DNA of 30,248 bases from a virus: positions 1 to 30,248 of IMG/VR virus record IMGVR_UViG_3300021964_000324, one strand, 5' to 3'. Position 1 is the stretch's first letter, and every line of letters begins with the position of its first letter. Positions 1-25,274 of this stretch are shown here, one piece after another. Both the position numbers and the translations under genes were made by a program. Below the pieces are notes generated by a model. The model saw nothing but the letters and a program-made list of their open reading frames with translations, was not told the origin of the DNA and ran no database searches.

Positions 1-624
1 CACAAATGGAACTTATTAGACCCACAAGATACGGACGGAGCATATAGAATAACTTGGTTAGGTGGTATGACCCACTCATCAACGGGTATTAGAGGTAATG
101 GGTCAAACTCTGTTGGAAAAACTAATTGGAACCCAGTAAGTGAGAGTGTTAGTAATATTTGTATGGGTCTATACATCAACGATGGTCTTACAGCAACACC
201 AAGTAGTGAATATGATATGGGTGGTCTGGCTCAACCTTTGGGTGTAAATACAGATATAATGATTACTCTTGGATTTAACAATAAGACTACCAAATATGTT
301 AACTTTTATAGAACGAACTATTTTACAACACAGGCAGGTGATTATAGTAGTTGTCTGTTAATGGGACAGAATAACGGAGGAACAACTCAATTATTCCAAG
401 ACGAAGTAATAATAGTAAATGGAAGCCAAACATTAGGAACGGCAGATGTATCGTTTGGTGTTGGTGCCAGTGTAAGAAATATTGGTGGTGTTGAGAGTGT
501 TGCGGGCTCATCTCAAAGAGGTTATGGAACGGCGTTTATCGGTGATACATTCCTAACAGAACCACAAGTAGCGTTGTTGAATACCGCAATAATTACATTT
601 AACACAGCATTAAGTAGAAACTAA
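1..624 (+). CDS. Tail adhesin / receptor-binding protein, C-terminal part (5' end outside window)
   Basis: The reading frame is open from base 1 (HKWNLLDPQDTDGAYRITW...), so the start lies outside the window; 207 residues are visible. The opening matches residues after HKFNAKDPRDLDAAFRITW in the protein at 851-1870, followed by related Gly/Ser/Asn-rich beta-strand sequence and a common ending (ALSRN versus ALGRNVV). This 'HKFN.KDPRDLDAAFR' domain recurs in tail proteins of Bacteroidota phages and is probably a lectin-like receptor-binding head; that role is inferred. The stop is 2 nt before the next start. The missing N-terminus is probably the partial gene at 29983-30248. An internal ATG at base 67 is unlikely to be the start because upstream homology continues to base 1. 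Confidence 0.7.
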   Translation, partial: HKWNLLDPQDTDGAYRITWLGGMTHSSTGIRGNGSNSVGKTNWNPVSESVSNICMGLYINDGLTATPSSEYDMGGLAQPLGVNTDIMITLGFNNKTTKYVNFYRTNYFTTQAGDYSSCLLMGQNNGGTTQLFQDEVIIVNGSQTLGTADVSFGVGASVRNIGGVESVAGSSQRGYGTAFIGDTFLTEPQVALLNTAIITFNTALSRN

Positions 625-625
625 T

Positions 626-841
626 ATGAAAGTAGGATTACTAACAGAAGCACAGAAAAATCAACTTGTAGGGCAACTATGGGAACCAGATAGTTATTTT
701 GAGCCTGTAGAAGATTGTAATAATAATTGGATTATTTCTTTAGAAGAAATGAATGGAAATACAAACCCGAACTTTACTTGGGTTGCTACATTACCACAGA
801 TTAACTTTTGTAGAAAACCATTCCCAAGTCCAGGTCAATAA
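626..841 (+). CDS. Small adhesin-associated protein (71 aa), copy 1
   Basis: A 71-residue protein with no signal peptide or membrane segment, beginning MKVGLLTEAQKNQL. It is a clear paralogue of the 67-aa protein at 1872-2075: both share MKVG.LTE.Q...L.G at the N-terminus, a central W.IS..EM, and a C-terminal W...LP.(I/V)(N/D)(F/Y) segment. Each copy directly follows an adhesin gene of the same family, so adhesin plus small protein behaves as a duplicated cassette. Short proteins of this form are common beside tail adhesins in Bacteroidota phages; a role as chaperone or accessory subunit of the adhesin is inferred from position only. Confidence 0.7.
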   Translation: MKVGLLTEAQKNQLVGQLWEPDSYFEPVEDCNNNWIISLEEMNGNTNPNFTWVATLPQINFCRKPFPSPGQ

Positions 842-850
842 ATAAATTAA

Positions 851-1870
851 ATGGCTAAACAATTTAGAAATACAGATTTCGTCAATTTGTTTGGCGACCC
901 TGACCGCCCCATATATGGGAACGAGGAGGTTGTGCCCGCACCACCTTCACCAACACCATCGGCAACTCTAACTCCTACTCCAACGATTACCCCAACACTC
1001 ACTCCAACACCTACACCATCTGCCACTCCACCACCTGCTGGTTATGCTGAAGCGAATGCTTACCTTGAGGCTGTTGTAGATGCTGGTGGAACGGGTATTA
1101 CGAGTTCAGTATCTGCGGCTACAAGGACATTCTTTAATGAGTTATTTACAAATAACTTATACGATAAGTTTGAGGCAATCTATCCGTTCATTGGTGGAAC
1201 AGCAAACTCTCATAAGTTCAACGCTAAAGACCCAAGAGATTTGGACGCAGCATTTAGAATAACTTGGTATGGTGGTATGGGACACGATAGTGATGGTATT
1301 ATCCCTAATGGGTCTAATTCCTTTGGTAATACTCACTTTACTCCTGCTGATTATGAGGAAATCACTGGTAATACATCGGGTAATGTTGGTGTATATTTAA
1401 GACAGACAGGAACATCAAGGACATTCGTATATGAGGTTGGTATTACTATTTATACTACAGAGTTTTCTATTAGAGCCGCAGGTATCCCTAACTATGGTGC
1501 TACGCATGTTATTGGTGGTTTGTTTGCTGCTTCAAGTGTATCAACGAGTGAAACATTCTTACCAGGTGTTGTTATGTTGAGTAGAACAGATAGTAGTAAT
1601 GCGTTTATGTATGCTAATGGTGGTAGTTTGGGTCAATTAGGAAACGGACAAGCACCTGAATTGCTTACCTCACCAATGGTTATCGGTGCTGTAAGATTAT
1701 TACAAGCAAGTGGAGCCCCTGATGGAGATGGTGGTGGAATTAGTGATTACACTGATAGACCGATGAGTATGGTATTCTTTGGTGTAGAAGGATTGAGTAG
1801 TGGTGAGGTATCCCAACTCACTAATATAATAGATGATTACCAAGTAGCCTTGGGTAGAAATGTAGTATAA
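851..1870 (+). CDS. Modular tail adhesin with PT-rich stalk (339 aa)
   Basis: Three parts are visible. Residues 1-26 (FRNTDFVN...DRPIYGNE) match the N-terminus of the protein at 2068-3243 and are probably the tail-anchoring module. Residues ~28-62 are a Pro/Thr/Ser stalk built on TPTP repeats. Residues ~65-339 are the head domain (EANAYLEAV... then IYPFIGGTANSHKFNAKDPRDLDAAFR), homologous to the genes at the two window ends. The head is Gly/Ser/Thr-rich with many short beta-like stretches and no membrane segment. It is likely a virion-exposed receptor-binding protein. The gene begins 9 nt after the previous stop in an AT-rich AAATAAATTAAATG context without a Shine-Dalgarno sequence. Confidence 0.75.
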   Translation: MAKQFRNTDFVNLFGDPDRPIYGNEEVVPAPPSPTPSATLTPTPTITPTLTPTPTPSATPPPAGYAEANAYLEAVVDAGGTGITSSVSAATRTFFNELFTNNLYDKFEAIYPFIGGTANSHKFNAKDPRDLDAAFRITWYGGMGHDSDGIIPNGSNSFGNTHFTPADYEEITGNTSGNVGVYLRQTGTSRTFVYEVGITIYTTEFSIRAAGIPNYGATHVIGGLFAASSVSTSETFLPGVVMLSRTDSSNAFMYANGGSLGQLGNGQAPELLTSPMVIGAVRLLQASGAPDGDGGGISDYTDRPMSMVFFGVEGLSSGEVSQLTNIIDDYQVALGRNVV

Positions 1871-1871
1871 T

Positions 1872-2075
1872 ATGAAAGTAGGACGACTAACAGAACAACA
1901 GAGAGACGATTTAAGAGGAGTTATGTATGATAACGACACTTACTATAATCCATCATTAGATGGTTTGGGAGAGTGGTTTATATCAACGCATGAAATGGAT
2001 AAATCCAATTTACAATGGGTGAAGGACTTACCCCTTGTAGATTATGTAGAGCCAATAGCACCGACCAATGAGTAA
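1872..2075 (+). CDS. Small adhesin-associated protein (67 aa), copy 2
   Basis: A 67-residue paralogue of the 71-aa protein at 626-841, sharing MKVG.LTE.Q, a central EWFISTHEMD and the closing WVKDLP.VDY. It starts immediately after the 339-aa adhesin (TAATATG junction) and its last 8 nt overlap the start of the 391-aa adhesin, which indicates translational coupling. Function is unknown; cassette behaviour suggests an adhesin accessory or assembly role. Confidence 0.7.
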   Translation: MKVGRLTEQQRDDLRGVMYDNDTYYNPSLDGLGEWFISTHEMDKSNLQWVKDLPLVDYVEPIAPTNE

Positions 2076-3243
2076 TGTTCCATTTAGAAATACAGATTAT
2101 GTAAATAACCCTATTGGTAATGACCGACCGATTTATGGTAATGAGTTGGTGCCTGAAGGTGGTTGTATGCCTGATGGTATTACTCGTGTTATGAGATTTA
2201 CAGATAATCAGACGAGTGATAGTGGTAATTTTTATCAGATGACTGATTATAGTGGTGGTCCATTGAACTCTGTTTATATTACCGCAGGGTCTGATGGTGC
2301 TGCTTTCAGATTACACGACAACTACATAAAGAACACCGAGTATAATGGTGTTAGTTATACGGCTTGGCAGGGTGATGGTCCTTATAGTGGTGGTAAAATG
2401 TTTTTTGTATTTGATACAGATGGAGGGGGCTATAGATATTATATTACAAGCCCATTAGGGACAAATACAAATCCAATATATGGTGGTGATTATTCTGGTG
2501 GTTTATCCTTATCTTACCCCAATGGTTTAGCCCAACCAATTATTAAGAATGGTGTGGGTTATCCACCATTAGACCTTTATAGTGGTAATAGTTTTGAGGG
2601 TAGGTTTATTATAGAATACATCGGACAAGAATGTGATACTATCACACCGACCCCAACGATATCACAGGGATACTTACCAACACCTACGCCAACACCGACA
2701 TCAAGTATGACCCCAACGCCAAGTATTACTCCAACACATAGTCAGACCCCAACACCGACTATTACACCAACGATTACTCCATCACCAACGAATTGTAGTT
2801 GTTTGGAGTATGAGGTAAATAACACCTCCGAGTTTACACAAGACACCATTGGGTGGCTGGATTGTAATCAACAATCCCAAGAACAAACTTTAGCACCAGG
2901 AACGATATTGAGGATATGTGCCTGTGCGGGTTCAGTGGAGAGTAGAGGAGGAGTTAGCACGATTACCTTAATAGGTTCGTGTGGTCTTACACCAACACCT
3001 ACACCAACTCAATCCATCACTCCTACACCATCCCAAGTTTATGCGTATAGATACGAGGTATCAAATTGTGATGACGCAACAGATGTAAGGACATTCTGGT
3101 CTGATGACTTTTATGCTGTCGGTAAGGTGGTAAAGGGGTATAATGATGTGGATAAATGTTTTGAGATTGTTGGTTCATCAACTTTAACCCCTACGGATGA
3201 GGTCGCAAACTCATATATCAGTTGCGGCAGTTGTCCTCGTTAA
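2068..3243 (+). CDS. Modular tail adhesin with two PT linkers and Cys-containing modules (391 aa)
   Basis: The N-terminal module (FRNTDYVN....DRPIYGNE, residues ~5-27) is shared with the 339-aa adhesin, but the following domain (~30-190, rich in G, Y, S and T) is unrelated to it. A long TPTP stalk spans ~191-242, then a Cys-containing module with CSCLEY and CACAG motifs (~245-305), a second short TPTP linker (~307-323) and a terminal module with paired cysteines (~325-391). Similar PT-linked Cys modules are widespread in marine and freshwater Bacteroidota phages. Same anchor with different head domains indicates domain shuffling. A virion tail fibre or adhesin is the best call; the ligand is unknown. 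Confidence 0.7.
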   Translation: MSNVPFRNTDYVNNPIGNDRPIYGNELVPEGGCMPDGITRVMRFTDNQTSDSGNFYQMTDYSGGPLNSVYITAGSDGAAFRLHDNYIKNTEYNGVSYTAWQGDGPYSGGKMFFVFDTDGGGYRYYITSPLGTNTNPIYGGDYSGGLSLSYPNGLAQPIIKNGVGYPPLDLYSGNSFEGRFIIEYIGQECDTITPTPTISQGYLPTPTPTPTSSMTPTPSITPTHSQTPTPTITPTITPSPTNCSCLEYEVNNTSEFTQDTIGWLDCNQQSQEQTLAPGTILRICACAGSVESRGGVSTITLIGSCGLTPTPTPTQSITPTPSQVYAYRYEVSNCDDATDVRTFWSDDFYAVGKVVKGYNDVDKCFEIVGSSTLTPTDEVANSYISCGSCPR

Positions 3244-3264
3244 AACTATTTATAGATTATGATT
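3244..3264 (+). repeat. 21-bp exact repeat over a start codon, copy 1
   Basis: A 21-base segment containing ACTATTTATAGATTATG, whose ATG starts the gene at 3259, is repeated exactly at 25254-25274 over the start of the protease gene. Related TAGTATTTAT(A/C) segments lie just before the starts at 22193 and 11184. It could be a translation enhancer or a phage-specific late promoter element. Confidence 0.6.
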
Positions 3265-3684
3265 GTATTAAACATAGGTCAAAATAACGAGGTTTACGAA
3301 CCTGCGAGTAGAAACAAGGAATTACAAAACCCTACATATTTGTTTTCCTTTTATCATAAGTTAAGCGGTCAGGTATGGAGAGCAATTCCCTATGTCGGGG
3401 ATTGGACTGCTGATTATACTTCAAGGTTTGATACATTTTATATCAATATTGATTATACTATACCTCAATCACTGACGGGTAATACAACGACAAGTTCAAC
3501 GAATATCCATCTGATTGAGGGTGATTATTGGATTTCAATATACGAACAATTCTCCACCACTAACCTTGACCCTTCTAAAAGTTTCAATAAGGTAATTGAG
3601 ACATTTGGTTATGTTGTCCCTGAAACTACAACAAATCCAACTTATGAAGGAGATAATTATGAATATAAGATATACGAACAATGA
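3259..3684 (+). CDS. Virion/tail-associated beta-rich protein (141 aa), unknown
   Basis: A 141-residue protein rich in aromatic and beta-branched residues (NPTYLFSFYHK, then YWISIYEQ and a closing YEYKIYEQ), with no membrane segment. Proteins with this NPTYLF...IYEQ...(N)LDP layout occur in Bacteroidota phages next to portal and fibre genes and are assumed structural; this is family recollection, not a search result. It follows the adhesin cassette and overlaps the portal start by 4 nt, so it is co-translated with the portal. The start is preceded by the 21-bp repeat also found before the protease gene. The exact virion role is unknown. Confidence 0.55.
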   Translation: MIVLNIGQNNEVYEPASRNKELQNPTYLFSFYHKLSGQVWRAIPYVGDWTADYTSRFDTFYINIDYTIPQSLTGNTTTSSTNIHLIEGDYWISIYEQFSTTNLDPSKSFNKVIETFGYVVPETTTNPTYEGDNYEYKIYEQ

Positions 3685-4745
3685 TAGAAAATGTAAGTTT
3701 TTCAAGTGAGGACATCTACAAGTTTGAGGAGAAGGTAATGACCTCAAAGGATTGGGTTATGGCAGGACCTAAAGATGACTTTTTTGATTTCCTTTATGAT
3801 ATGGTAGATTACTCACCAATTCATAATGTATGCCTCCGTAGTAAGACCGATAATGTCGTGGGACAGGGTTTTACCCGTGAATACCAAATGAATAAAACAG
3901 AGGACATCAATGACCTATTTAGAAAAATCAGTTTTGAGTTTCTAACAACGGGTAATGTATTCCTTGAGTGTGTTTGGGCTAATGATAGAACACAAGGTAT
4001 CAAATCCGTATATTTTATTCCATCAAAGTATATGAGGGTCGGTAAAACCGATTTCGTGTATGAGGAGCCAAATAAGTATTACTATTCAGAGGACTTTGGT
4101 AAGAAAGGTTCAGTTATTGAGTTTGCTGCTTTGGACCCAACAAACTTTACAGACAGACAAGTTTATCATATCAAGGCATATTCACCAGGATACAACTACT
4201 ATGGTCTACCATCGTATATGTCGGTTATCAACGATGTAAGGTTGAACCACGACATATCTATCCACCACTTATCAAATATTCAGAATGGTGCTACTCCGTC
4301 TTTGTGGGTCAACTTTAGAAACTCACAACCTGGTTCAGAGAAAGAACAAAGAGACATCAAAAGGAAACTACAGGAATTATACACGGGACCTGAAGCGGCT
4401 GGTAAAATCATTGTATCGTTCAGTGAGCCAGATAACGGACCTGAAATTACAACTCTGAACCCTACAACAAACGATAACTACTATAGTGGTATCTTTGATA
4501 GCGTCCAAAAACAAATCTTATCGGGCCACAAAATCACCTCACCGAGTTTGATTGGACTACCTGACCCAAGTGGTTTGGCATCACAAGCAGAACAGATACA
4601 GACATCGTTTGGTGTATTCTTAAACACGACCATCAAACCGATACAGAACGAACTAATTTCTAATCTTTATCCAATCATCAAATTGATGAACCCTGATGAG
4701 GAGGTTGATTTAGAGATAATCCAAAACAATATATTAGCACAATAA
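3681..4745 (+). CDS. Portal protein (354 aa)
   Basis: Portal of the PBSX/HK97-like family (PF04860 type): the dodecameric ring at the capsid vertex through which TerL pumps DNA. Seen in the protein: an N-terminal segment with SPIHNVCLRSKTDNVVGQGF, a central YYGLPSYMS motif (~173-180), then H..SNIQNGATPSLWVNF (~197-213), a stretch with a predicted helical E/K-rich clip region, and a C-terminal helical part (IKPIQNELISNLYPII). At 354 aa it is on the short side for a portal but complete. The start overlaps the previous gene by 4 nt (ATGA) and the connector follows after one base. It is far from TerL in either direction, which is unusual. Confidence 0.88.
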   Translation: MIENVSFSSEDIYKFEEKVMTSKDWVMAGPKDDFFDFLYDMVDYSPIHNVCLRSKTDNVVGQGFTREYQMNKTEDINDLFRKISFEFLTTGNVFLECVWANDRTQGIKSVYFIPSKYMRVGKTDFVYEEPNKYYYSEDFGKKGSVIEFAALDPTNFTDRQVYHIKAYSPGYNYYGLPSYMSVINDVRLNHDISIHHLSNIQNGATPSLWVNFRNSQPGSEKEQRDIKRKLQELYTGPEAAGKIIVSFSEPDNGPEITTLNPTTNDNYYSGIFDSVQKQILSGHKITSPSLIGLPDPSGLASQAEQIQTSFGVFLNTTIKPIQNELISNLYPIIKLMNPDEEVDLEIIQNNILAQ

Positions 4746-4746
4746 T

Positions 4747-5346
4747 ATGGCACAAGTATATTTCATTTCAGAAACCAAATTGAAGGACTACACCAGTATC
4801 AATGATAATGTTGATAGTGGGACATTAAGACAGGCAATCAGAACGGCACAACTAATCAACTTACAAGAGACATTGGGGACATCCCTATACAATGAGTTAG
4901 TGGATTTAGTAGATACGGGTGATATTACGGGAGCGACGAACTCAAATTACCGCACACTATTGGATGATTATGTTGTGGATGTTGTTATCCAATATTCGTT
5001 ATTCTACGCATTGGATGATTTCATTTACAAGTTTATGAATGTAGGATTGGTTCAAGGTTTTTCAGAACAAGGTTCGTCATTGGATATTTCAACATTTAAG
5101 ATGATTAAGAATAGTGCCCGTGATAGAGCAGAGTTTTTTGATAATAGGTTAAGAGAGCACTTATTCAACAATGAAAATCTATACCCTGCGTATAAGACCT
5201 CAACGACTGACGGGACTTTACCAGGAGCAAACACAGATGGTATCATATCATCTATTGTATTGGATACTCCGATGTATAGTAAGGACTACGACCCTACTTG
5301 TTGTAAAGATTACCCATATAAAGCAAAGTATCAAGTTGGAAAGTGA
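4747..5346 (+). CDS. Head-tail connector, DUF6712-like (199 aa)
   Basis: The N-terminal pattern YFISETKLKDYTSINDNVD followed by a helix with AQ.INLQETLG.SLYNEL and a YRTLLDDYV helix is typical of the DUF6712 family found in Bacteroidota phages just after the portal, regarded as a head-tail adaptor of the gp6/gp15 kind. The middle is helical and the C-terminus carries a CC pair (PTCCKDYPY). It sits one base downstream of the portal stop, consistent with assembly at the neck. Family assignment comes from motif recognition. Confidence 0.75.
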   Translation: MAQVYFISETKLKDYTSINDNVDSGTLRQAIRTAQLINLQETLGTSLYNELVDLVDTGDITGATNSNYRTLLDDYVVDVVIQYSLFYALDDFIYKFMNVGLVQGFSEQGSSLDISTFKMIKNSARDRAEFFDNRLREHLFNNENLYPAYKTSTTDGTLPGANTDGIISSIVLDTPMYSKDYDPTCCKDYPYKAKYQVGK

Positions 5347-5369
5347 GGACAGAGGTGAAAACATTTGTA

Positions 5370-5510
5370 ATGGATAGAGTTTTGATGATGAATATGGGAG
5401 CCATAGCGTTCTCATTTACCGATGTGGAGATGGTCCTACGAGTTATTGCCTTATTGGCATCCATAACTTATACCTTGATTAAGATTAAGGATAGGAACAA
5501 GAACAACTAA
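5370..5510 (+). CDS. Small single-span membrane protein (46 aa), holin-like candidate
   Basis: Translation from the ATG at 5370 gives MDRVLMMNMGAIAFSF..., one hydrophobic segment (VLRVIALLASITYTLI, ~22-37) and a charged C-terminus (KIKDRNKNN). An in-frame GTG at 5355, preceded by GAGG, would add five residues. One transmembrane helix with a basic tail fits small class III holins or pinholins and also many phage membrane peptides. It is the last gene before the strong terminator at 5523, at the end of the structural transcript. Function is inferred only from shape and position. Confidence 0.6.
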   Translation: MDRVLMMNMGAIAFSFTDVEMVLRVIALLASITYTLIKIKDRNKNN

Positions 5511-5522
5511 ATTAAAAATTAT

Positions 5523-5546
5523 TCCCCTTTATGGGGATTTTTTTTT
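5523..5546 (+). terminator. Intrinsic terminator after the portal-connector operon
   Basis: TCCCC-TTTAT-GGGGA hairpin (5-bp stem) followed immediately by nine T. It lies 13 nt after the stop at 5510 and 8 nt before the next promoter, marking the end of the rightward structural transcript. Confidence 0.8.
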
Positions 5547-5554
5547 GGGTATTG

Positions 5555-5585
5555 TTTGGCAGTTCAGAAAATTGGTGTATCTTTG
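5555..5585 (+). promoter_or_regulatory. Bacteroidota-type promoter P1
   Basis: The -33 element TTTG (5555-5558, context TTTGGCAG), a 19-nt spacer and the -7 element TATCTTTG (5578-5585) match TTTG-n19/20-TAnnTTTG. A 32-nt A/C-rich leader follows before the ATG at 5618. Confidence 0.8.
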
Positions 5586-5617
5586 TATAACAATTAAGGA
5601 ATTAAACAACAATAACA

Positions 5618-5929
5618 ATGAAAGAAACAAAAACACCAACACCACAAATCACATTCAACCAATATTCACTAAACACCTTTGACCTTATGTTAGATAAGTT
5701 TTTGGGATACAAATACGAAGGGACTTTGTTTGACGAACTTTGGGTCTACAGAAAATCACCAAAAGAAAGTATTACTCTACAAGTAGGTAATGGTGGTTTG
5801 ATGTTCGTATCCATAGACAGAAAAGATGATAATGGCAGAACAATTCCAAGTTTTATCAACATCACAGAAGCAAAAAATGTTGCTGAACTTTACAAACTAA
5901 TTGAAACAACACTAAAAAAAATGAAATAA
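5618..5929 (+). CDS. Hypothetical early protein (103 aa)
   Basis: A 103-residue soluble protein, not recognised. The N-terminus is polar (KETKTPTPQ), the middle has alternating beta-type sequence (ESITLQVGNGGLMFVSID) and the C-terminus is a Lys-rich helix (AELYKLIETTLKKMK). It has its own promoter (P1), a leader ending in the shared AACAAnnACAATG context, and a hairpin right after its stop that doubles as the spacer of the next promoter. It is therefore probably a monocistronic early gene. Confidence 0.6.
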   Translation: MKETKTPTPQITFNQYSLNTFDLMLDKFLGYKYEGTLFDELWVYRKSPKESITLQVGNGGLMFVSIDRKDDNGRTIPSFINITEAKNVAELYKLIETTLKKMK

Positions 5930-5931
5930 TA

Positions 5932-5963
5932 TTTGGAGGATAGAAATATCCTCCTTATATTTG
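5932..5963 (+). promoter_or_regulatory. Promoter P2 with a perfect inverted repeat filling its spacer
   Basis: TTTG (5932-5935), 20-nt spacer, TATATTTG (5956-5963). The interval 5935-5954 is a perfect 8-bp inverted repeat, GGAGGATA-GAAA-TATCCTCC. It could terminate the upstream transcript (stop at 5929) with the -7 box serving as U-rich tail, act as an operator, or both. It drives 5995 and probably 6186. Confidence 0.8.
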
Positions 5964-5994
5964 TCCTATCAATAACAAATTAAACAACAAGACA

Positions 5995-6171
5995 ATGACT
6001 GAAATTAAAATCAACGACAAAGTAGAGTTCATCGTAGGTAATAACATCAAAGGTATGACTGGTGTAATAGAGGAAATCAATGATGATGAGTATGTAGTTC
6101 ACTTGGATAACTCACCACTATTCATCAAGCATGTTTCCGCAAAATTAGAAGACATCAAAAAAATCAAATAA
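5995..6171 (+). CDS. Small KOW/SH3-like protein (58 aa)
   Basis: An unlisted short gene: ATG at 5995 to TAA at 6171, 58 residues beginning MTEIKINDKVEF. The pattern K.NDKV.F..G...KGMTGVIEEI..DEYVVHLD resembles a single KOW/SH3-barrel motif (hydrophobic-basic strand, KG..G.V, then alternating strands), a fold used in nucleic-acid or ribosome/RNA-polymerase binding such as NusG and L24. That similarity is by eye and the partner is unknown. It sits behind promoter P2 with a 31-nt A/C-rich leader and is followed 14 nt later by 6186. Confidence 0.6.
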   Translation: MTEIKINDKVEFIVGNNIKGMTGVIEEINDDEYVVHLDNSPLFIKHVSAKLEDIKKIK

Positions 6172-6185
6172 TAAAAACATAAGCA

Positions 6186-6488
6186 ATGAATAAGACAACA
6201 AAGAAAAGGTTATTAGAAATCTGTTTTGAGGAAAGTGAAAAATATACAGATTTAGTATGGTTCGCTCGTGTAAAAGAGGAAAACCTACAAATTGAAGCAG
6301 TAGTGAAATCCTATTTAAGAGTAATGGCTAATTATCCGTTTGAGGTTGACCTATTACAGGAGGAGAGTTTAGGTGATTTCCACCACGGCTTTAATTCAGG
6401 TTGTTTGGCAGCATTCAGATATATGATTACTTGTATGAGTGAAGGTGAGGTTGAAGCCATTGAGATGTTCCCTGAATTAGATACTTAA
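6186..6488 (+). CDS. Hypothetical protein (100 aa)
   Basis: A 100-residue acidic, probably helical protein (EICFEESEKY, EVDLLQEESLGDF, a His-rich DFHHGFNSG turn, then AAFRYMITCMSEGEVEAIEMF). No family was recognised and there are no membrane segments. No promoter is visible in the 14-nt gap from 5995-6171, so it is likely co-transcribed from P2. Confidence 0.55.
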   Translation: MNKTTKKRLLEICFEESEKYTDLVWFARVKEENLQIEAVVKSYLRVMANYPFEVDLLQEESLGDFHHGFNSGCLAAFRYMITCMSEGEVEAIEMFPELDT

Positions 6489-6491
6489 TAA

Positions 6492-6534
6492 TTTGACTAT
6501 ATCACTGGTGTTTCTTACCATTTATTTAATAAAT
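6492..6534 (+). promoter_or_regulatory. Weak promoter candidate and palindrome upstream of 6549
   Basis: TTTGACTA at 6492 is followed 20 nt later by TACCATTT, an imperfect -7 box. A 7-bp perfect inverted repeat, ATTTATT-T-AATAAAT, spans 6520-6534 over that position. The same TTTGACTA -33 context is used by the minus-strand promoter at 10741. Without a TTTG -7 this remains a weak candidate. Confidence 0.3.
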
Positions 6535-6548
6535 TAAAAATATACATT

Positions 6549-6857
6549 ATGCCGAAAAAGAATTGGAAAGCAGTTGTGAAAGCAACTTTAGAAAACTACC
6601 CTGAAACACGGGAGAACAACCAAGCCCTATGGGTTCGTATAACGGACCAAATCTGTAGAGATAAGGGTTGGACCACAAAAGATGAAATCTTTTATCACAC
6701 CTTATTGGAGGACCTACCAAGTCAACATTCACTGGTCGCAGATGCCAGTATTGTTAAAAGAGAAAACACTGAATTGATGCCGACATCAAAGTCGTATCAA
6801 AGAAAGATGGAGATACAAGGTGAGTATATCAACGAATGGAATAATAAAATAGGATAA
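6549..6857 (+). CDS. Hypothetical protein (102 aa), first gene of a three-gene operon
   Basis: A 102-residue basic protein (MPKKNWKAVVKATLENYPET...). The central part (ALWVRITDQICRDKGW, then LEDLPSQHSL and ASIVKRENTE, SYQRKMEIQ) resembles small phage proteins with a helical N-terminus and a '..S..R..R..Q' C-terminal helix, found in replication or accessory regions; no firm family. The stop is one base before the next ATG, so it is translationally coupled to 6859. Confidence 0.55.
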   Translation: MPKKNWKAVVKATLENYPETRENNQALWVRITDQICRDKGWTTKDEIFYHTLLEDLPSQHSLVADASIVKRENTELMPTSKSYQRKMEIQGEYINEWNNKIG

Positions 6858-6858
6858 G

Positions 6859-7071
6859 ATGAGTAGAACAAAAGAACAATCAATCGTATTTCAGAACCAA
6901 TCACACCTCGTTCAGAAACATTTTGAGAATTGTAATATATGTCCGAGCCTTTTGGATATATGTTTAGGAACAGACCTTATGGTTAGATTTGCCACAGAAG
7001 GTTATAGTAGTGAACTTAAAGAAAGATTTAATGCCTACGAAAAATATATTTCGGAGCAATACAAAGGGTAA
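6859..7071 (+). CDS. Hypothetical Cys-containing protein (70 aa)
   Basis: A 70-residue protein with a CNICPSLLDIC motif (C-x2-C-x6-C) and several histidines nearby, so metal binding is possible but unproven. The rest is polar and helical (SSELKERFNAYEKYISEQ). Its TAA overlaps the next start (TAATG), the signature of tight coupling with 7071. Confidence 0.55.
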   Translation: MSRTKEQSIVFQNQSHLVQKHFENCNICPSLLDICLGTDLMVRFATEGYSSELKERFNAYEKYISEQYKG

Positions 7072-7262
7072 TGGAGGAACAGATATTAGAAATGACTATC
7101 AGGTTATCCCGTGAGGAAGCCGAATTGAAATCAGGTAGACAGATACCCCTTGAGGAATGGCATTCCTTTTGGAAATGTTTTAAGGAGTATTACCTATTAG
7201 AACACGATGCCACCCTACAATGGATTGGTGAGGAGTGGGACGAACTGAAACACGACTATTAA
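7071..7262 (+). CDS. Hypothetical acidic helical protein (63 aa)
   Basis: A 63-residue, acidic and aromatic-rich protein (SREEAELKSG, EEWHSFWKCFKEYY, WIGEEWDELKHDY). No family recognised. It is the last gene of the 6549-7262 operon and is followed by a strong terminator at 7295. Confidence 0.55.
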   Translation: MEEQILEMTIRLSREEAELKSGRQIPLEEWHSFWKCFKEYYLLEHDATLQWIGEEWDELKHDY

Positions 7263-7294
7263 AACCATCATTACGAAAATTGTTGTTTAATTGA

Positions 7295-7329
7295 TAAATC
7301 CCAAGTTGATGGTCTTGGGATTTTTTTTT
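7295..7329 (+). terminator. Strong intrinsic terminator
   Basis: Perfect 9-bp stem AATCCCAAG / CTTGGGATT with an 8-nt loop, followed by a run of T to 7329. It closes the 6549-7262 operon and stands 9 nt before the -33 element of promoter P3. Confidence 0.9.
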
Positions 7330-7338
7330 GCTCTAATG

Positions 7339-7370
7339 TTTGGTAGTTAAATCTGAACGCCGTATATTTG
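7339..7370 (+). promoter_or_regulatory. Bacteroidota-type promoter P3
   Basis: TTTG (7339-7342, context TTTGGTAG), 20-nt spacer, TATATTTG (7363-7370). A 27-nt A/C-rich leader ending in ACAACAACAATT precedes the ATG at 7398. Confidence 0.85.
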
Positions 7371-7397
7371 TCTTATCAAATTAAAACAACAACAATT

Positions 7398-8054
7398 ATG
7401 TTTAAGCAAGAAGTAAAAAACCAAGACACTTACATCAAATACGACACATTATTAGATAGATTATCCGATACAAAAGGATACGATATTGATAATTGTTGTT
7501 CTCACCGCTCACTCAAAGTCCAAGACCTTACCAATTTTGATATCAACTTTGGTGTGGTATTCATCAAGTCAAGTTTGACTAACAACCCAATCCACAAAGC
7601 GAACTCTAAAATGTTCTTTGGTTATACACCAGTATGGTTGTGGCATGTTTGGAATGAGAATGATGATGTTATCTACGATAGTTTTGAGGCTCTTAAAAGT
7701 CGTTGTGATAATCCAAACTTGGATGTTGATAAACTCCACACCTCTTATGTAGATTGTCCTATCAATTTCCTACCTTGTTTAGAGAATAAAAATATTGAGG
7801 ACACGGGTTATACCAGAAATATGGATAACACGATAAAGAATAGTATTGTGGGTATGAATTGGTTGGAGGGTAAACTCAAGGGTTTCACTCGTAAGATGAA
7901 AAAACCTGACCTTATCTACTTTGGTGGTATCTGCCTTGATGATACAGAATTAGGTATGGCTACGATGGGTGAGGAATACTTGAACTTTGTTTGTGATAGC
8001 CACGACTACCGATACGGATGGACTGGTGATACCCAAACACATATTGTAAAATAA
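7398..8054 (+). CDS. Hypothetical protein (218 aa), largest early gene
   Basis: The ATG at 7398 is chosen because an upstream in-frame TTG at 7368 lies inside the -7 box of P3 and cannot be on the transcript. The product has 218 residues, is soluble, Asp/Asn- and aromatic-rich, with eight cysteines (an early CC pair, CDNP, YVDCPINFLPC, GGICLDD, CDSHD). Motifs such as YTPVWLWHVWNENDD and SHDYRYGW are not assignable to a known enzyme. It is monocistronic, bounded by terminator 7295 and promoter P4. A host-takeover role would fit position but is a guess. Confidence 0.6.
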   Translation: MFKQEVKNQDTYIKYDTLLDRLSDTKGYDIDNCCSHRSLKVQDLTNFDINFGVVFIKSSLTNNPIHKANSKMFFGYTPVWLWHVWNENDDVIYDSFEALKSRCDNPNLDVDKLHTSYVDCPINFLPCLENKNIEDTGYTRNMDNTIKNSIVGMNWLEGKLKGFTRKMKKPDLIYFGGICLDDTELGMATMGEEYLNFVCDSHDYRYGWTGDTQTHIVK

Positions 8055-8065
8055 TTGAAAATATA

Positions 8066-8097
8066 TTTGGCGGAGTAAAATCTCCGCCGTATATTTG
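8066..8097 (+). promoter_or_regulatory. Promoter P4 with an inverted repeat filling its spacer
   Basis: TTTG (8066-8069), 20-nt spacer, TATATTTG (8090-8097). Bases 8069-8088 form GGCGGAG-TAAAAT-CTCCGCC, a 7-bp perfect inverted repeat in exactly the position held by a different repeat in P2. It starts 11 nt after the stop at 8054 and drives 8135. Confidence 0.8.
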
Positions 8098-8134
8098 ATA
8101 TATCAAAGAAACAGAAATACTAAAAACAACAATT

Positions 8135-8374
8135 ATGAAATCACTTTATTCTACACTAACAAAACAAGAAACCACTGAACTACTAATGGATGTAATGGAA
8201 CAATATGTAGGTTCATTGGAGGACCAAGAGGTTCAATACGAGGTTATCGTAAAGTTTTACGACATCAACGATGAGAAATACACCTTTAGTGGTATGACCC
8301 GTATGGAGGCTTACCAGTTCAACTCTGACCTACAGGGTATCTACAACAACTTGGTAATCACTGAAATGGTATAA
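8135..8374 (+). CDS. Hypothetical protein (79 aa)
   Basis: A 79-residue acidic soluble protein: N-terminal helix (KQETTELLMDVMEQYVGSLED), then beta-type stretches (VQYEVIVKFYDIND, KYTFSGMTRMEAYQF). No family recognised. It is preceded by a 37-nt leader from P4 with the AAAACAACAATTATG ending also seen before 7398. No terminator hairpin is visible after it; promoter P5 begins 4 nt past its stop. Confidence 0.55.
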   Translation: MKSLYSTLTKQETTELLMDVMEQYVGSLEDQEVQYEVIVKFYDINDEKYTFSGMTRMEAYQFNSDLQGIYNNLVITEMV

Positions 8375-8378
8375 TAAG

Positions 8379-8410
8379 TTTGGCAGAATAAAAACTAATC
8401 CCTATATTTG
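8379..8410 (+). promoter_or_regulatory. Bacteroidota-type promoter P5
   Basis: TTTG (8379-8382, context TTTGGCAG as in P1), 20-nt spacer, TATATTTG (8403-8410), then a 23-nt leader ending ATAACAAGACAATG like that of P2. No hairpin is seen in this spacer. Confidence 0.85.
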
Positions 8411-8433
8411 TAGAACAATTAAATAACAAGACA

Positions 8434-8712
8434 ATGAGTAAAATAGCACAACGATTAAGCAAATACGAAAACACAACATTCAAGTTTTATGAAACCGCAC
8501 GACACGGATACCTACTTGTCCCAAATGAGATAATCTCTGATTTTGAGATTAGATTTACTATCACACCTTTTTCTTTTCAGACCAAAATAGATAAAAAAAC
8601 TTGGGTTTATTTAGAGGAGGATTGTGATGCTGGAACATTCATAGAAGCATACAAGGCTTACTATGGTAAAGAACCAAAGATGATACAGAACGATAGGGTT
8701 TTGTGTCTTTAA
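8434..8712 (+). CDS. Hypothetical protein (92 aa)
   Basis: A 92-residue soluble protein (MSKIAQRLSKYENTTFKFY...), with beta-like sequence in the middle (DFEIRFTITPFSFQTKID) and an acidic helix later (EEDCDAGTFIEAYKAYYGKEP). No family recognised. It is transcribed from P5; the 49-aa gene at 8743 follows in the same transcript. Confidence 0.55.
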   Translation: MSKIAQRLSKYENTTFKFYETARHGYLLVPNEIISDFEIRFTITPFSFQTKIDKKTWVYLEEDCDAGTFIEAYKAYYGKEPKMIQNDRVLCL

Positions 8713-8742
8713 TAGAACATTAACCTTTAACACCAAAGAGAA

Positions 8743-8892
8743 ATGAAGATTAAAGAATGGGCGAAAGCCTACAAAAAAGCGACTAACCCTAAAAAAATAC
8801 CTTTGTGGCTTGTTCTTTTTGGGAGTCAAGAAGATGTGTTTGCCTTTTTTGATAAAAGGCTAAAGGAAGAACTTAACACAAAAGAGAAATGA
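8743..8892 (+). CDS. Small basic hypothetical protein (49 aa)
   Basis: ATG at 8743 to TGA at 8892. The sequence starts MKIKEWAKAYKKATNPKK, then a short hydrophobic PLWLVLFGS and a C-terminal helix DVFAFFDKRLKEEL. The hydrophobic stretch is too short for a confident membrane span. Its start lies in a 20-nt segment (AACACCAAAGAGAAATG...) that recurs at 8875-8894 across its stop, where an overlapping ATG would read only 13 codons; the second copy looks like a decayed duplicate. Support is moderate: length, coupling and reading frame only. Confidence 0.4.
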   Translation: MKIKEWAKAYKKATNPKKIPLWLVLFGSQEDVFAFFDKRLKEELNTKEK

Positions 8893-8985
8893 AAAAATTA
8901 GGAGAAAAACATAGAAATGTTTTGGCATAATAAAAACAAACCCAGTGGTGGTGGGGTAAAGACAACCACGCATGTTTAATAAATT

Positions 8986-9016
8986 AGGGGGATGGTTTGG
9001 CTGTCTCCCTTTTTTT
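8986..9016 (+). terminator. Intrinsic terminator nested in promoter P6
   Basis: AGGGGGA / TCTCCCT stem (7 bp including one G-U) around an 11-nt loop, followed by T7 within TTTTTTTATTT. The loop contains the -33 TTTG of the next promoter and the T-run lies in its spacer. Confidence 0.7.
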
Positions 9017-9027
9017 ATTTATCTTTG
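8996..9027 (+). promoter_or_regulatory. Bacteroidota-type promoter P6 overlapping a terminator
   Basis: TTTG (8996-8999, context TTTGGCTG), 20-nt spacer, TATCTTTG (9020-9027). The ATG at 9032 begins 5 nt after the -7 box, about where transcription should start, so the mRNA should be leaderless. Confidence 0.75.
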
Positions 9028-9031
9028 GTGT

Positions 9032-9448
9032 ATGAAAACATTTAAGGACTTTTTCAATAACAAACAGAGATACACCGACATCGTTGATGGTGAGGGTAAT
9101 GTTATCCGTAAGGGTGATGTTATGTCTAACAATAACCCAACGACCAGAACAACCCTTGATACCTTATACAAAGGTGGTGAGTTGGAGTTGAATATTGAAA
9201 AGTTTGAGTATACAGAGTGTGGATACTCCAAGATAAAACAATACAGACGATTACAAGGGGGATATAGACCACAACAGGTGATAAGATATAGATATACCTA
9301 TACTGAAGGGAGAAAGCGTCTTACATCAAAGGATTTCAAGTCATTGAGAGATTTGATTATAGATATGAGACAAAAAACCTCTGAAGTGAAAATGGGAGTA
9401 AACACAACAGAGGTTATTGAAACTGATAATCAGTTATTGATAAGGTAA
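9032..9448 (+). CDS. Hypothetical basic protein (138 aa), probably translated from a leaderless mRNA
   Basis: An in-frame ATG at 8972 would add 20 residues but lies upstream of promoter P6 and across its terminator, so the start at 9032 (MKTFKDFFNNKQRY) is preferred. The 138-aa protein is basic: a DGEGNVIRKGDVM turn, then YSKIKQYRRLQGGYRP and RYRYTYTEGRKRLTSKDF, a pattern that would suit nucleic-acid binding but fits no family I recognise. It ends 11 nt from the end of the convergent minus-strand operon and no terminator is visible between them. Confidence 0.55.
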   Translation: MKTFKDFFNNKQRYTDIVDGEGNVIRKGDVMSNNNPTTRTTLDTLYKGGELELNIEKFEYTECGYSKIKQYRRLQGGYRPQQVIRYRYTYTEGRKRLTSKDFKSLRDLIIDMRQKTSEVKMGVNTTEVIETDNQLLIR

Positions 9449-11183: not shown

Positions 11184-11522
11184 ATGAGGATACTAAAGGA
11201 CATCATAGATAAGTTAGAAGGACTTGACCCTGACTTGGATTACTTCCAACATTCAGTAAAGGACAGAGACCGACTTGCGAGTGTATTGTGGGATGAAGTA
11301 TATGGTAAACCATATCTGAACGATATGAAAACATCAAGGAGGACCAAACCCCTTGAAGCCCACTATGATATCTTGGTATACCTGATAGGAATACTCTACG
11401 ATTTTGAGGGTGATGATGAATACGAATTATGTGATGTGGTCCACAGGCTCATCAACATAACGGAGGATAAAATAAAAACATTGAATAGATATTATGCCGA
11501 TACCGACAAAAAGACCAAATGA
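11184..11522 (+). CDS. Hypothetical protein (112 aa)
   Basis: A 112-residue acidic helical protein (LKDIIDKLEGLDPDLDYF, DILVYLIGILYDFEGDDEYELCDVVHRLI). No family recognised. Its ATG follows TAGTATTTATCTAT, related to the element in front of 3259, 22193 and 25269. Its 3' end overlaps the 50-aa gene at 11494 by 29 nt in another frame. Confidence 0.55.
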   Translation: MRILKDIIDKLEGLDPDLDYFQHSVKDRDRLASVLWDEVYGKPYLNDMKTSRRTKPLEAHYDILVYLIGILYDFEGDDEYELCDVVHRLINITEDKIKTLNRYYADTDKKTK

Positions 11523-12540: not shown

Positions 12541-12688
12541 GAATAAGACATACGAATACGACACCAAGATGATGGTGGTAAAAACCGATAGTAGAAATAA
12601 ATTAAAACAAATGGCTCAAAGAGAAGGATTTACGATGATTGAGTTTGTAGACAAACTGATTGAAACCTATGAGGATACAAGCAACTGA
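12524..12688 (+). CDS. Ribbon-helix-helix-like peptide overlapping TerS and TerL (54 aa)
   Basis: ATG at 12524 to TGA at 12688. The pattern MMVVKTDSRNKLKQMAQREG-FTMIEFVDKLIETYED matches a ribbon-helix-helix fold (beta strand, helix, turn, helix) as in Arc/MetJ-type or ParG/CopG proteins. It overlaps the end of TerS by 17 nt and the start of TerL by 20 nt, each in a different frame, filling an otherwise non-coding gap. RHH proteins bind DNA or mediate dimerisation; a repressor of late genes or packaging cofactor are both possible. The assignment is by eye. Confidence 0.6.
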   Translation: MKVKSKNKTYEYDTKMMVVKTDSRNKLKQMAQREGFTMIEFVDKLIETYEDTSN

Positions 12689-13838
12689 AGTATTCGCAGA
12701 TATTGATGAGGCAGTAAATCAGGGATACAGATACATTTTTTTAAGAGGGTCAACGAGGAGCGGAAAAACAATAGCATGCCTACAATATATTATCATAGAA
12801 TGTCTTAAGACCCCAAACCTATCAGCGACAATAGCCCGTGCTACACAAGTATCATTAAAGAATACCATACTCGTAGATTTCAAGGATATAATGAACTCTA
12901 TGGAAGTGTGGGATTGGGGAGTGTTTAACAAGGTAGATAATACCTACACATTCCCAAATAAAAGTGTGATTAGGTTTGTGGGGATGGATGATACCACCTC
13001 AAGGTTAAAGGGGATGAAATCAGATATCGCAATGGTAGATGAGGTCAACTCCGTAGACATTGACCCTTACGAGCAATTGAATATCCGTTTATCTAAATGG
13101 GTATTGTGTCCGTATAACCCTGAACTCACACCAGACCATTGGATACTCAAGTATGAGGAAAGGGAGGATGCGAAATTACTTATTTCTAATTGGAGACAAA
13201 ATAGTTTCTTGGATGAAAGGACAAGGAAAGCAATTAGAGACCTCAAACTCACCAACCCTGATTTGTATGAGATTTATTCAGAAGGAAGGATTGTTGAACC
13301 AAGAGAGAAAATCTTTACAGAGGTCCAAACTTACACACAAGCACCAGAAACTAAACAGGTATACTACGGGATTGACTATGGTTATAGTTCAGACCCTTCA
13401 GCCGTCATCAAGGTATCCGTAGATGGTAAGACCCTATATTGTGAGGAGGTCCTATACGAGAAGGGTTTAACCAACCAAGATTTAGCCCACCTAATCAAAA
13501 CAGAAGGTATCACAAGGGACGATGCGGTGGTGGCTGATAGTAGTGAACCAAAGAGTATCCAAGAGTTAAACAGGGAAGGTCTACGAGTGGTAGGAGTAAA
13601 AAAAGGTTCAGGGTCAATTCTTTATGGTATCCAAAAAATGAAAAGTTTTAATATCCTTATCAAGGAGGATAGTGAAAACCTAATCAGGGAATGGAACAAC
13701 TACAAGTTTAAGAAAGACAGAAGTGGGAACATTACCAACATTCCAATAGGGGACGACCACGCATTGGACGCATTAAGGTATGTCGTATTACAATTTTTAG
13801 ACAACCTGATAAACAGAGGAAAATACATAATAGTATGA
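12669..13838 (+). CDS. terL: Terminase large subunit (389 aa)
   Basis: ATPase-nuclease that packages DNA through the portal. Walker A GSTRSGKT is at residues 27-34; Walker B MVDE at 122-125 supplies the catalytic Asp-Glu. The RNase H-like nuclease has its metal-binding aspartates in YYGIDYGYSSD (D236), VVADSSEP (D290) and DDHALDALRY (D362/D363 and D367). An in-frame TTG at 12660 would add three residues; the ATG at 12669 is preferred. At 389 aa it is compact for the family (usually 400-500) but has all motifs. The stop overlaps the next start (ATGA). The portal is not adjacent, unlike most siphoviruses. Confidence 0.93.
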   Translation: MRIQATEVFADIDEAVNQGYRYIFLRGSTRSGKTIACLQYIIIECLKTPNLSATIARATQVSLKNTILVDFKDIMNSMEVWDWGVFNKVDNTYTFPNKSVIRFVGMDDTTSRLKGMKSDIAMVDEVNSVDIDPYEQLNIRLSKWVLCPYNPELTPDHWILKYEEREDAKLLISNWRQNSFLDERTRKAIRDLKLTNPDLYEIYSEGRIVEPREKIFTEVQTYTQAPETKQVYYGIDYGYSSDPSAVIKVSVDGKTLYCEEVLYEKGLTNQDLAHLIKTEGITRDDAVVADSSEPKSIQELNREGLRVVGVKKGSGSILYGIQKMKSFNILIKEDSENLIREWNNYKFKKDRSGNITNIPIGDDHALDALRYVVLQFLDNLINRGKYIIV

Positions 13839-25255: not shown

Positions 25256-25274
25256 CTATTTATAGATTATGATT
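25254..25274 (+). repeat. 21-bp exact repeat over a start codon, copy 2
   Basis: Identical to 3244-3264; the ATG within it starts the protease gene at 25269. The flanking bases differ, so the identity ends sharply at 21 bp. Confidence 0.6.

Follow-up and report, generated by a model that had tools for sequence, protein, structure and literature searches.

The window analysed here, a 30,248-nucleotide stretch covering positions 1 to 30,248 of virus record IMGVR_UViG_3300021964_000324, contains promoters whose spacers are filled by inverted repeats, and raises the question of whether the same bases could end one transcript and start the next. Promoters of the sigma-ABfr type of Bacteroidota have the consensus TTTG/TAnnTTTG (PMC6847099). 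Six sites on the plus strand match TTTG-n19/20-TAnnTTTG (at 5555, 5932, 7339, 8066, 8379, and 8996), compared with a mean of 1.1 in shuffled versions of the window; none of 100 shuffles contained six. All of them, P1–P6, have a -33 TTTG and a -7 TAnnTTTG at a spacing of ∼19–21 nt. In the list below, D is the d'Aubenton-Carafa score, which follows E. coli rules.

5523..5537, plus strand: stand-alone terminator 5′ of P1, D +47
5555..5585, plus strand: P1, promoter with no nested hairpin, preceded by the ordinary terminator above
5932..5963, plus strand: P2, candidate fused element of class A, TTTG-GAGGATAGAAATATCCTCCT-TATATTTG, an exact match to TTTG-n20-TAnnTTTG with a hairpin-filled spacer
5935..5954, plus strand: P2 hairpin, 8 bp perfect stem, GAAA (GNRA) loop
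7296..7323, plus strand: stand-alone terminator 5′ of P3, D +34
7339..7370, plus strand: P3, promoter with no nested hairpin, preceded by the ordinary terminator above
8066..8097, plus strand: P4, candidate fused element of class A, TTTG-GCGGAGTAAAATCTCCGCCG-TATATTTG, a match to TTTG-n20-TAnnTTTG
8069..8088, plus strand: P4 hairpin, 7 bp perfect stem, loop TAAAAT
8379..8410, plus strand: P5, promoter with neither a nested nor an upstream terminator
8986..9027, plus strand: P6, candidate fused element of class B, strong terminator, D +42

A nested hairpin of the P2/P4 type is present in only two of the six promoters. The first-pass annotation had placed such hairpins in successive promoters, which does not hold for P1, P3, and P5. 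At P1 and P3, a gap of ∼15–17 nt separates the ordinary terminator from the promoter, and P5 forms no hairpin (RNA folding z-score +1.3). As first described, the hairpins of P2 and P4 run from the final G of TTTG to a point one base short of the -7 box. The identical geometry claimed for the pair is retained in the outer length of 20 nt but not in the loops (4 versus 6 nt); what they have in common is therefore outer length, not loop. Their stems, GGAGGATA and GGCGGAGT, had been called completely different. Both contain GGnGGA, and the two elements by themselves do not serve as evidence of a geometry independent of sequence. The P2 RNA folds with a predicted energy of −15.6 kcal/mol (z −4.8), including a lower stem past a UU/UU internal loop, and the P4 RNA with −18.4 kcal/mol (z −4.9). 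The D score of P2 is modest on the sense strand (+9.9) and −30 on the antisense strand; that of P4 is −6.5 because G is the first tail base.

The genes flanking the three candidate elements are as follows.

5618..5929, plus strand: gene, 103 aa, ending 2 nt 5′ of P2; no family match
5995..6171, plus strand: gene, 58 aa, with predicted start from P2; sub-threshold KOW-like match
7398..8054, plus strand: gene, 218 aa, ending 11 nt 5′ of P4; no family match
8135..8374, plus strand: gene, 79 aa, with predicted start from P4; no family match
9032..9448, plus strand: gene, 138 aa, with predicted start from P6

The upstream stop codon is separated from TTTG by 2 nt at P2, 11 nt at P4, and 103 nt at P6, rather than the ∼15–100 nt given previously. 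Predicted leaders measure 27, 33, and 0 nt, respectively; the ATG of 9032..9448 coincides with the predicted transcription start, and this mRNA is therefore possibly leaderless. Comparison of the flanking genes with Pfam and PHROGs gave no function beyond the weak KOW-like match. L002, a near relative with ∼75% nucleotide identity, contains a stretch matching the 58-aa gene. No Rfam family matched in the window at the gathering threshold.

The promoter architecture is also present in L002. The stem-loop of P6 (8986–9010) holds the -33 TTTGG (8996–9000) in its loop, and its -7 box lies at 9020–9027; P6 was confirmed as a terminator whose loop contains TTTGG and whose T-run falls within the promoter spacer, as first described (folding z-score −3.6). 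In L002, the P6-type element keeps the TTTGG loop, the T-run, and TATCTTTG, while the stem is changed to CCCGAG/CTCGGG. Hairpins of the P2/P4 type are absent from this relative. Relatives found through the terminase and two local genes were few and for the most part fragments, and blastn of the whole region (5.4–9.6 kb) against phage isolates returned 0 matches.

Viral contigs were scanned for the pattern TTTGG-n6-GAAA-n6-CC-n-TAnnTTTG, and sites were counted after redundancy filtering. They came mostly from viral contigs of the same promoter type, not from close relatives, and most were retrieved by patterns fixing the promoter boxes and the outer GG/CC. The first-pass annotation had made its proposal depend on spacer-filling inverted repeats being more frequent in related phages than in shuffled controls, and such an excess was indeed found: at least five of the six free pairs were complementary in 33 of 72 filtered sites, against an arm-shuffled expectation of 3.6 and a maximum of 11 in 5,000 runs. 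Complementary arms of differing sequence were ∼9 times commoner than in arm-shuffled controls, and offsetting the pairing partners by one base reduced the complementary sites to 3 and 0. A scan fixing only GG...CC and the boxes gave 16 stems of at least 5 bp versus 3.4. In many related elements, bases 5′ of TTTG pair with the -7 box past a UU/UU internal loop, and the pairs of this lower extension covary as well (64% versus 32% shuffled). A TTVGG scan, the control for the -33 box, yielded only three matches of any kind and is given no weight. By the fold filter used, the isolates phi14:2 (first half), FCL-2, and 6H contained no such element. A related element is present in the cultured Elizabethkingia phage TCUEAP1, at 11316–11347 between the tape-measure gene and the CDS that follows it, and a direct test is therefore possible.

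Single non-Watson-Crick pairs in the filtered hairpin sites comprised 11 G.U, 0 A.C, and 4 others. That A.C never occurs indicates RNA in the sense direction; with the covariation, this is the selection for a sense-strand RNA hairpin expected of an intrinsic terminator. Scans in which the loop was left unspecified still yielded GAAA, GTGA, and GAGA loops. T was the first tail base in 28 of 33 hairpin sites versus 14 of 30 non-hairpin sites, and is preferred even though A would extend the stem. Perfect hairpins lay within 60 nt past a same-strand stop codon in 73 of 80 cases (median 16 nt), the location at 3′ ends of genes that characterizes intrinsic terminators, compared with 146 of 245 TTTGG promoters lacking a hairpin and 13.6% of random positions. 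Of the seven exceptions, one lay behind a tmRNA gene and none was divergent. In these contigs, most GNRA hairpins that lack promoter boxes are ordinary terminators carrying a T-run. The mismatch spectrum, tail base, and post-gene position thus point to a sense-strand terminator.

By E. coli rules, class A hairpins score poorly: 10 of 27 filtered ones passed the D score, P4 fails, and the class mean is −5.6. The run of U in most tails is no longer than three, and reaches five in TTATTTTTG. The weakness of these tails, especially at P4, suggests that termination may be partial. An antisense hairpin with a T-rich tail also occurs at 23 sites in virus record G003 and 13 in G004, which means that the strand signal has exceptions; none of the antisense D scores passed. 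Folding energy alone cannot separate the two strands because the hairpins are near-symmetric.

Among unique full hairpins, the -7 box ended in TTTG in 20 and in TTTA, TTTC, or TTTT in 11 combined, as expected if selection keeps the near-invariant last G of a sigma-ABfr box. This G is useless to a terminator, and its preservation indicates a promoter in the same DNA. Promoter-like sites number in the dozens in G003 and G004, and many of them enclose a hairpin; each record has ∼15–25 putative fused elements in three geometries, with real T-runs in classes B and C. The stems of G003 are diverse (GGAAAAGT, GGAAAGTA, GGAATTGT, and GGAGAATT).

The dyad between -33 and -7 has the position of MerR-type operators, and GGnGGA...TCCnCC is common to P2 and P4, as might suit binding by a phage repressor or a MerR-like activator. 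The operator role, which had been suggested initially, is not supported, given that the G003 genome has several different stems in place of one recognizable half-site. A DNA dyad also predicts G.T and A.C mismatches in equal numbers (11 versus 0 were seen) and leaves the GNRA loops, the T that opens the tail, and the post-gene location unexplained; an operator is quite improbable. Nor is it likely, if somewhat conceivable, that the hairpin merely marks or stabilizes the upstream mRNA 3′ end by RNase III-like processing or an exonuclease block, with no termination. The long RNA stem, whose lower extension covaries with the -7 box, and the weak class A U-tract agree with such a role, but class B and class C elements of the same genomes have real T-runs, the tail prefers T over an extra pair, and the same hairpin type with T-runs is found as ordinary terminators.

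Hairpins without function, formed by chance in AT-rich spacers or by template switching that perfects quasi-palindromes, would fit their absence from L002. Template switching alters both arms at once and can mimic covariation, and mixed-arm copies do exist in G003 (14950 and 21473). However, mutation alone does not predict the G.U excess, GNRA loops, and T tail, or hairpins placed in exact register with both boxes and with the preceding stop codons, which makes this explanation very unlikely. Finally, a hairpin inside a promoter, recurring through the genome, resembles the extruded single-stranded DNA promoter of the phage N4 virion RNA polymerase. Here, the wobble pairs favor a hairpin in the non-template and not the template strand, ordinary host boxes flank it, and many promoter-like sites of the same genomes lack it; an N4-type promoter is hardly credible.

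Arm covariation, the sense-strand signs, and the G of the -7 box support the original reading of P2, P4, and P6 as compact terminator-promoter fusions, which we consider likely. Probably, a ∼40-base piece of DNA is stop and start signal in one, here and in many viruses with the same promoters. Comparison of sites establishes selection for a hairpin with varying stems, its sense-strand RNA character, its post-gene position, and preservation of promoter bases; transcription would end and start at these elements. A Bacteroidota-type sigma-ABfr promoter (-33 TTTG, ∼20 nt spacing, -7 TAnnTTTG) would direct transcription of the downstream gene from a predicted start 4–5 nt beyond the -7 box, and the same bases, once transcribed at the 3′ end of the gene before, would fold into a hairpin. 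Where the hairpin occupies the spacer, as in class A (P2 and P4), the U-rich -7 box (UUAUAUUUG) would act as the terminator tail; class B, represented by P6, has its -33 box inside the hairpin loop and a T-run within the spacer. The purpose may be to give each small tandem gene a transcription unit of its own while taking up as little room as possible.

Terminators are often found near promoters, and the gene VIII terminator/gene III promoter of filamentous phages is a natural terminator beside or overlapping a promoter; that case is a single locus with a sigma-70 promoter, whereas the module here is repeated. Like intrinsic (Rho-independent) terminators, the elements have a GC-led stem, a GNRA loop, and a U-rich tail, weak in class A, and lie 3′ of genes on the sense strand. 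They differ in that the promoter -7 box replaces the U-tail in class A and the -33 box lies in the loop or arm in classes B and C. They share both boxes, the spacing, and an ATG 20–35 nt downstream with sigma-ABfr promoters (PMC6847099), and differ from them in a spacer constrained to self-complementarity and a -7 nn that often pairs with the two bases 5′ of TTTG. In systems where terminators adjoin the next promoter, RNA polymerase is recycled after termination (PMC6978380, PMC11347151); polymerase could plausibly reinitiate at the closest promoter here too, but at zero distance, with the same bases doing both jobs. The bifunctional terminator-promoter elements designed for yeast are likewise meant to close one unit and open another, and are synthetic and eukaryotic, unlike the phage elements (PMC10298055). 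In the literature searched, no promoter was found whose spacer and -7 box encode the preceding terminator, many times per genome and with differing stems. We judge the fused element to be a new variant arrangement of known parts.

Speculatively, viruses of Bacteroidota might use a reusable 40-base module between small genes in which polymerase released at the hairpin passes to the overlapping promoter, a gene-by-gene relay replacing operons in which pairing of the -7 box sets the balance of termination and initiation; this extension is doubtful at present. If the fusion reading is true, the elements would be a natural source of parts for building compact expression cassettes for Bacteroidota, would make terminator-to-promoter polymerase recycling testable at zero distance, and would explain how dozens of small, separately transcribed phage genes are packed with gaps of ∼60 nt.

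The 30,248-bp window, the whole of an IMG/VR virus record, has a G+C content of 38%. Across a module of small plus-strand genes at ~5.5–9.5 kb, the Bacteroidota promoter form TTTG-n19/20-TAnnTTTG occurs six times, where shuffled sequences average 1.1.

3681–4745, portal gene
5555, plus strand, promoter P1, ordinary terminator directly upstream
5932, plus strand, promoter P2, 8-bp spacer hairpin
7339, plus strand, promoter P3, ordinary terminator directly upstream
8066, plus strand, promoter P4, 7-bp spacer hairpin
8379, plus strand, promoter P5, no terminator
8996, plus strand, promoter P6, terminator hairpin
12660–13838, terminase gene

In P2 and P4, the hairpin opens with the final G of TTTG and leaves a single base before the −7 box. 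The terminator nested in P6, proposed by the first-pass annotation, was borne out, with TTTGG inside the loop and the T-run inside the spacer. Together with the terminators preceding P1 and P3, a sense-strand terminator-like hairpin therefore lies within or directly before five of the six promoters, compared with 0.2 predicted from random segments and none on the antisense strand. Other parts of the same description needed correction. P2 and P4 are not successive promoters, and their stems, described as completely different, have GGnGGA in common. An upstream stop is present at each element, but the distances to TTTG (2, 11, and 103 nt for P2, P4, and P6) fall outside the proposed ~15–100 nt. 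Elsewhere in the window, the C terminus of a 788-aa ORF (25269–27635) matches protease profiles, including head maturation, and the ORF has a weak portal profile match despite the separate portal gene. Window positions 79–8813 recur at 100% identity over 8.7 kb in IMGVR_UViG_3300021958_006882 (L007, 1–8735).

A near relative (L002, ~75% nucleotide identity) has the same gene module and a P6-type element. Its stem, CCCGAG/CTCGGG, is completely different, while the TTTGG loop, the T-run, and TATCTTTG are unchanged. No P2/P4-type hairpin was found in this relative, so that local covariation supports P6, and P2 and P4 draw their support solely from the wider comparison.

For this comparison, viral contigs were scanned with TTTGG-n16-CC-n-TATATTTG and no further constraint. 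At least 116 unique sites were obtained; among the matches listed, 16 had an outer stem of ≥5 bp, compared with 3.4 after swapping of arms among the sites. With GGnGG/CCnCC fixed, all four free pairs were complementary in 11 of 36 unique sites (1.8 expected). Fixing only a GAAA loop and outer GG/CC gave at least 107 unique sites, with five to six of the six free pairs formed in 55 versus 5.9 among the matches listed. When one site was kept per locus and near-identical sites were removed, 33 of 72 among the matches listed remained hairpin forming versus 3.6 in shuffles (maximum 11 in 5,000), the excess of spacer-filling inverted repeats that the first-pass annotation had anticipated. Shifting the partner by one base left 3 and 0 of these filtered sites.

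The hairpins appear to be selected as RNA rather than DNA. Where a near-perfect filtered hairpin has a lone non-Watson-Crick pair, it is G·U in 11 cases, another pair in four, and never A·C, whereas a DNA palindrome or cruciform would give G·T and A·C equally. GNRA loops are frequent even in scans that leave the loop unspecified. Immediately 3′ of the stem, T is present in 28 of 33 hairpin sites versus 14 of 30 non-hairpin sites; an A here would pair with TTTG and extend the stem, yet T is favored, as would be expected of a terminator tail. The two bases 5′ of TTTG are also complementary to the nn positions of the −7 box (GA-TC, AA-TT, TA-TA, GG-CC) in 64% of hairpin sites, related sites included, versus 32% (maximum 41%) with upstream parts shuffled; in non-hairpin promoters the values are 13.6% and 11.8%. 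P2 and P4 fold with this lower stem too, which may reflect an A-tract/U-tract arrangement.

The position of the elements points to terminators. A same-strand stop lies ≤60 nt upstream of 73 of the 80 perfect hairpins, at a median of 16 nt; the same holds for 146 of 245 TTTGG promoters that lack a hairpin and for 13.6% of random positions. No divergent upstream gene was seen at any of the seven exceptions. One, in a viral-collection contig (L303, 13120–13554), begins 8 nt downstream of a tmRNA gene, where the ending of the transcript matters and that of translation does not.

The promoter half is also preserved. The final G of TAnnTTTG is dispensable for a terminator. Nevertheless, the last base of the box in unique full hairpins from matched scans is G in 20 and A, C, or T in 11 combined; were G irrelevant, AT-rich DNA should show the opposite ratio. 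In Flavobacterium johnsoniae, transcription is expected to start 4–5 nt past the −7 box (PMC6847099), which predicts leaders of 27–33 nt for P2 and P4 and a leaderless P6 gene. At P6 (8996–9034), the ATG of the 138-aa gene lies 4 nt after the box, a spacing kept in L002 (from 5160).

Two further virus records, G003 (25.9 kb, endolysin encoding) and G004 (39.9 kb, with phage-type NAD-salvage enzymes), contain 57 and 67 promoter-like sites. A simple finder gave 14 and 15 hairpins filling the spacer (class A), four and four with the −33 element in the loop (class B), and, in G003, five with it in an arm (class C), compared with 3.9 and 2.8 of all classes expected from random segments. They typically lie 11–18 nt past one stop and 20–30 nt ahead of the next ATG. 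The antisense strand likewise yields high counts (23 and 13), in part owing to upstream A-tracts; within the filtered set, none of the hairpins on that strand passed the terminator D score. Mixed-arm copies (L330 at 14950; L331, G003 21473) join left arm GGAATTGT to right arm ACTTTTCC, which suggests exchange of half-elements between copies within one genome. The cultured Elizabethkingia phage TCUEAP1 has one related element, located between its tape-measure gene and the following CDS. In bacterial genomes, the GGnGG pattern yielded chiefly one recurrent Bacteroidales locus. Here, in rumen Bacteroidales genomes (L194, L211, L237, L217, L188, L214, L231), a spacer-filling hairpin promoter such as GGCGGATTGAAAAATCCGCC precedes an ABC transporter ATPase gene and is followed by the dyad-like TGTAATAGnATACTAATACA, resembling a GntR-type operator; upstream genes differ. 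Hairpins that resemble ordinary terminators occur in other viral contigs (L348, L351, L357, L380, L383), for example GGAGGAGC-GAAA-GCTCCTCC, preceded by TTT and followed by a T-rich tail that lacks the promoter G.

The tail is the main weakness of reading these elements as fused terminators. On the E. coli-based D score, P6 is strong (+42) and P2 modest (+9.9), while P4 (−6.5) and class A (mean −5.6) score poorly. Termination may be partial or dependent on host factors, or the chief role of the hairpin may be to shield the 3′ end or direct its processing. On the terminator-promoter reading, the most likely one, transcription from upstream would stop, at least partly, through folding of the spacer hairpin and transcription of the U-rich −7 box; at the DNA level, holoenzyme would bind these very boxes and initiate the downstream gene. 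A search of the open literature turned up no such elements described for Bacteroidota phages; the component parts are known, and their repeated fusion appears to be new. Since bacterial RNA polymerase can stay on the template once intrinsic termination has occurred and then re-initiate from whichever promoter is closest (PMC6978380; PMC11347151), the overlap could, speculatively, speed the re-use of polymerase.
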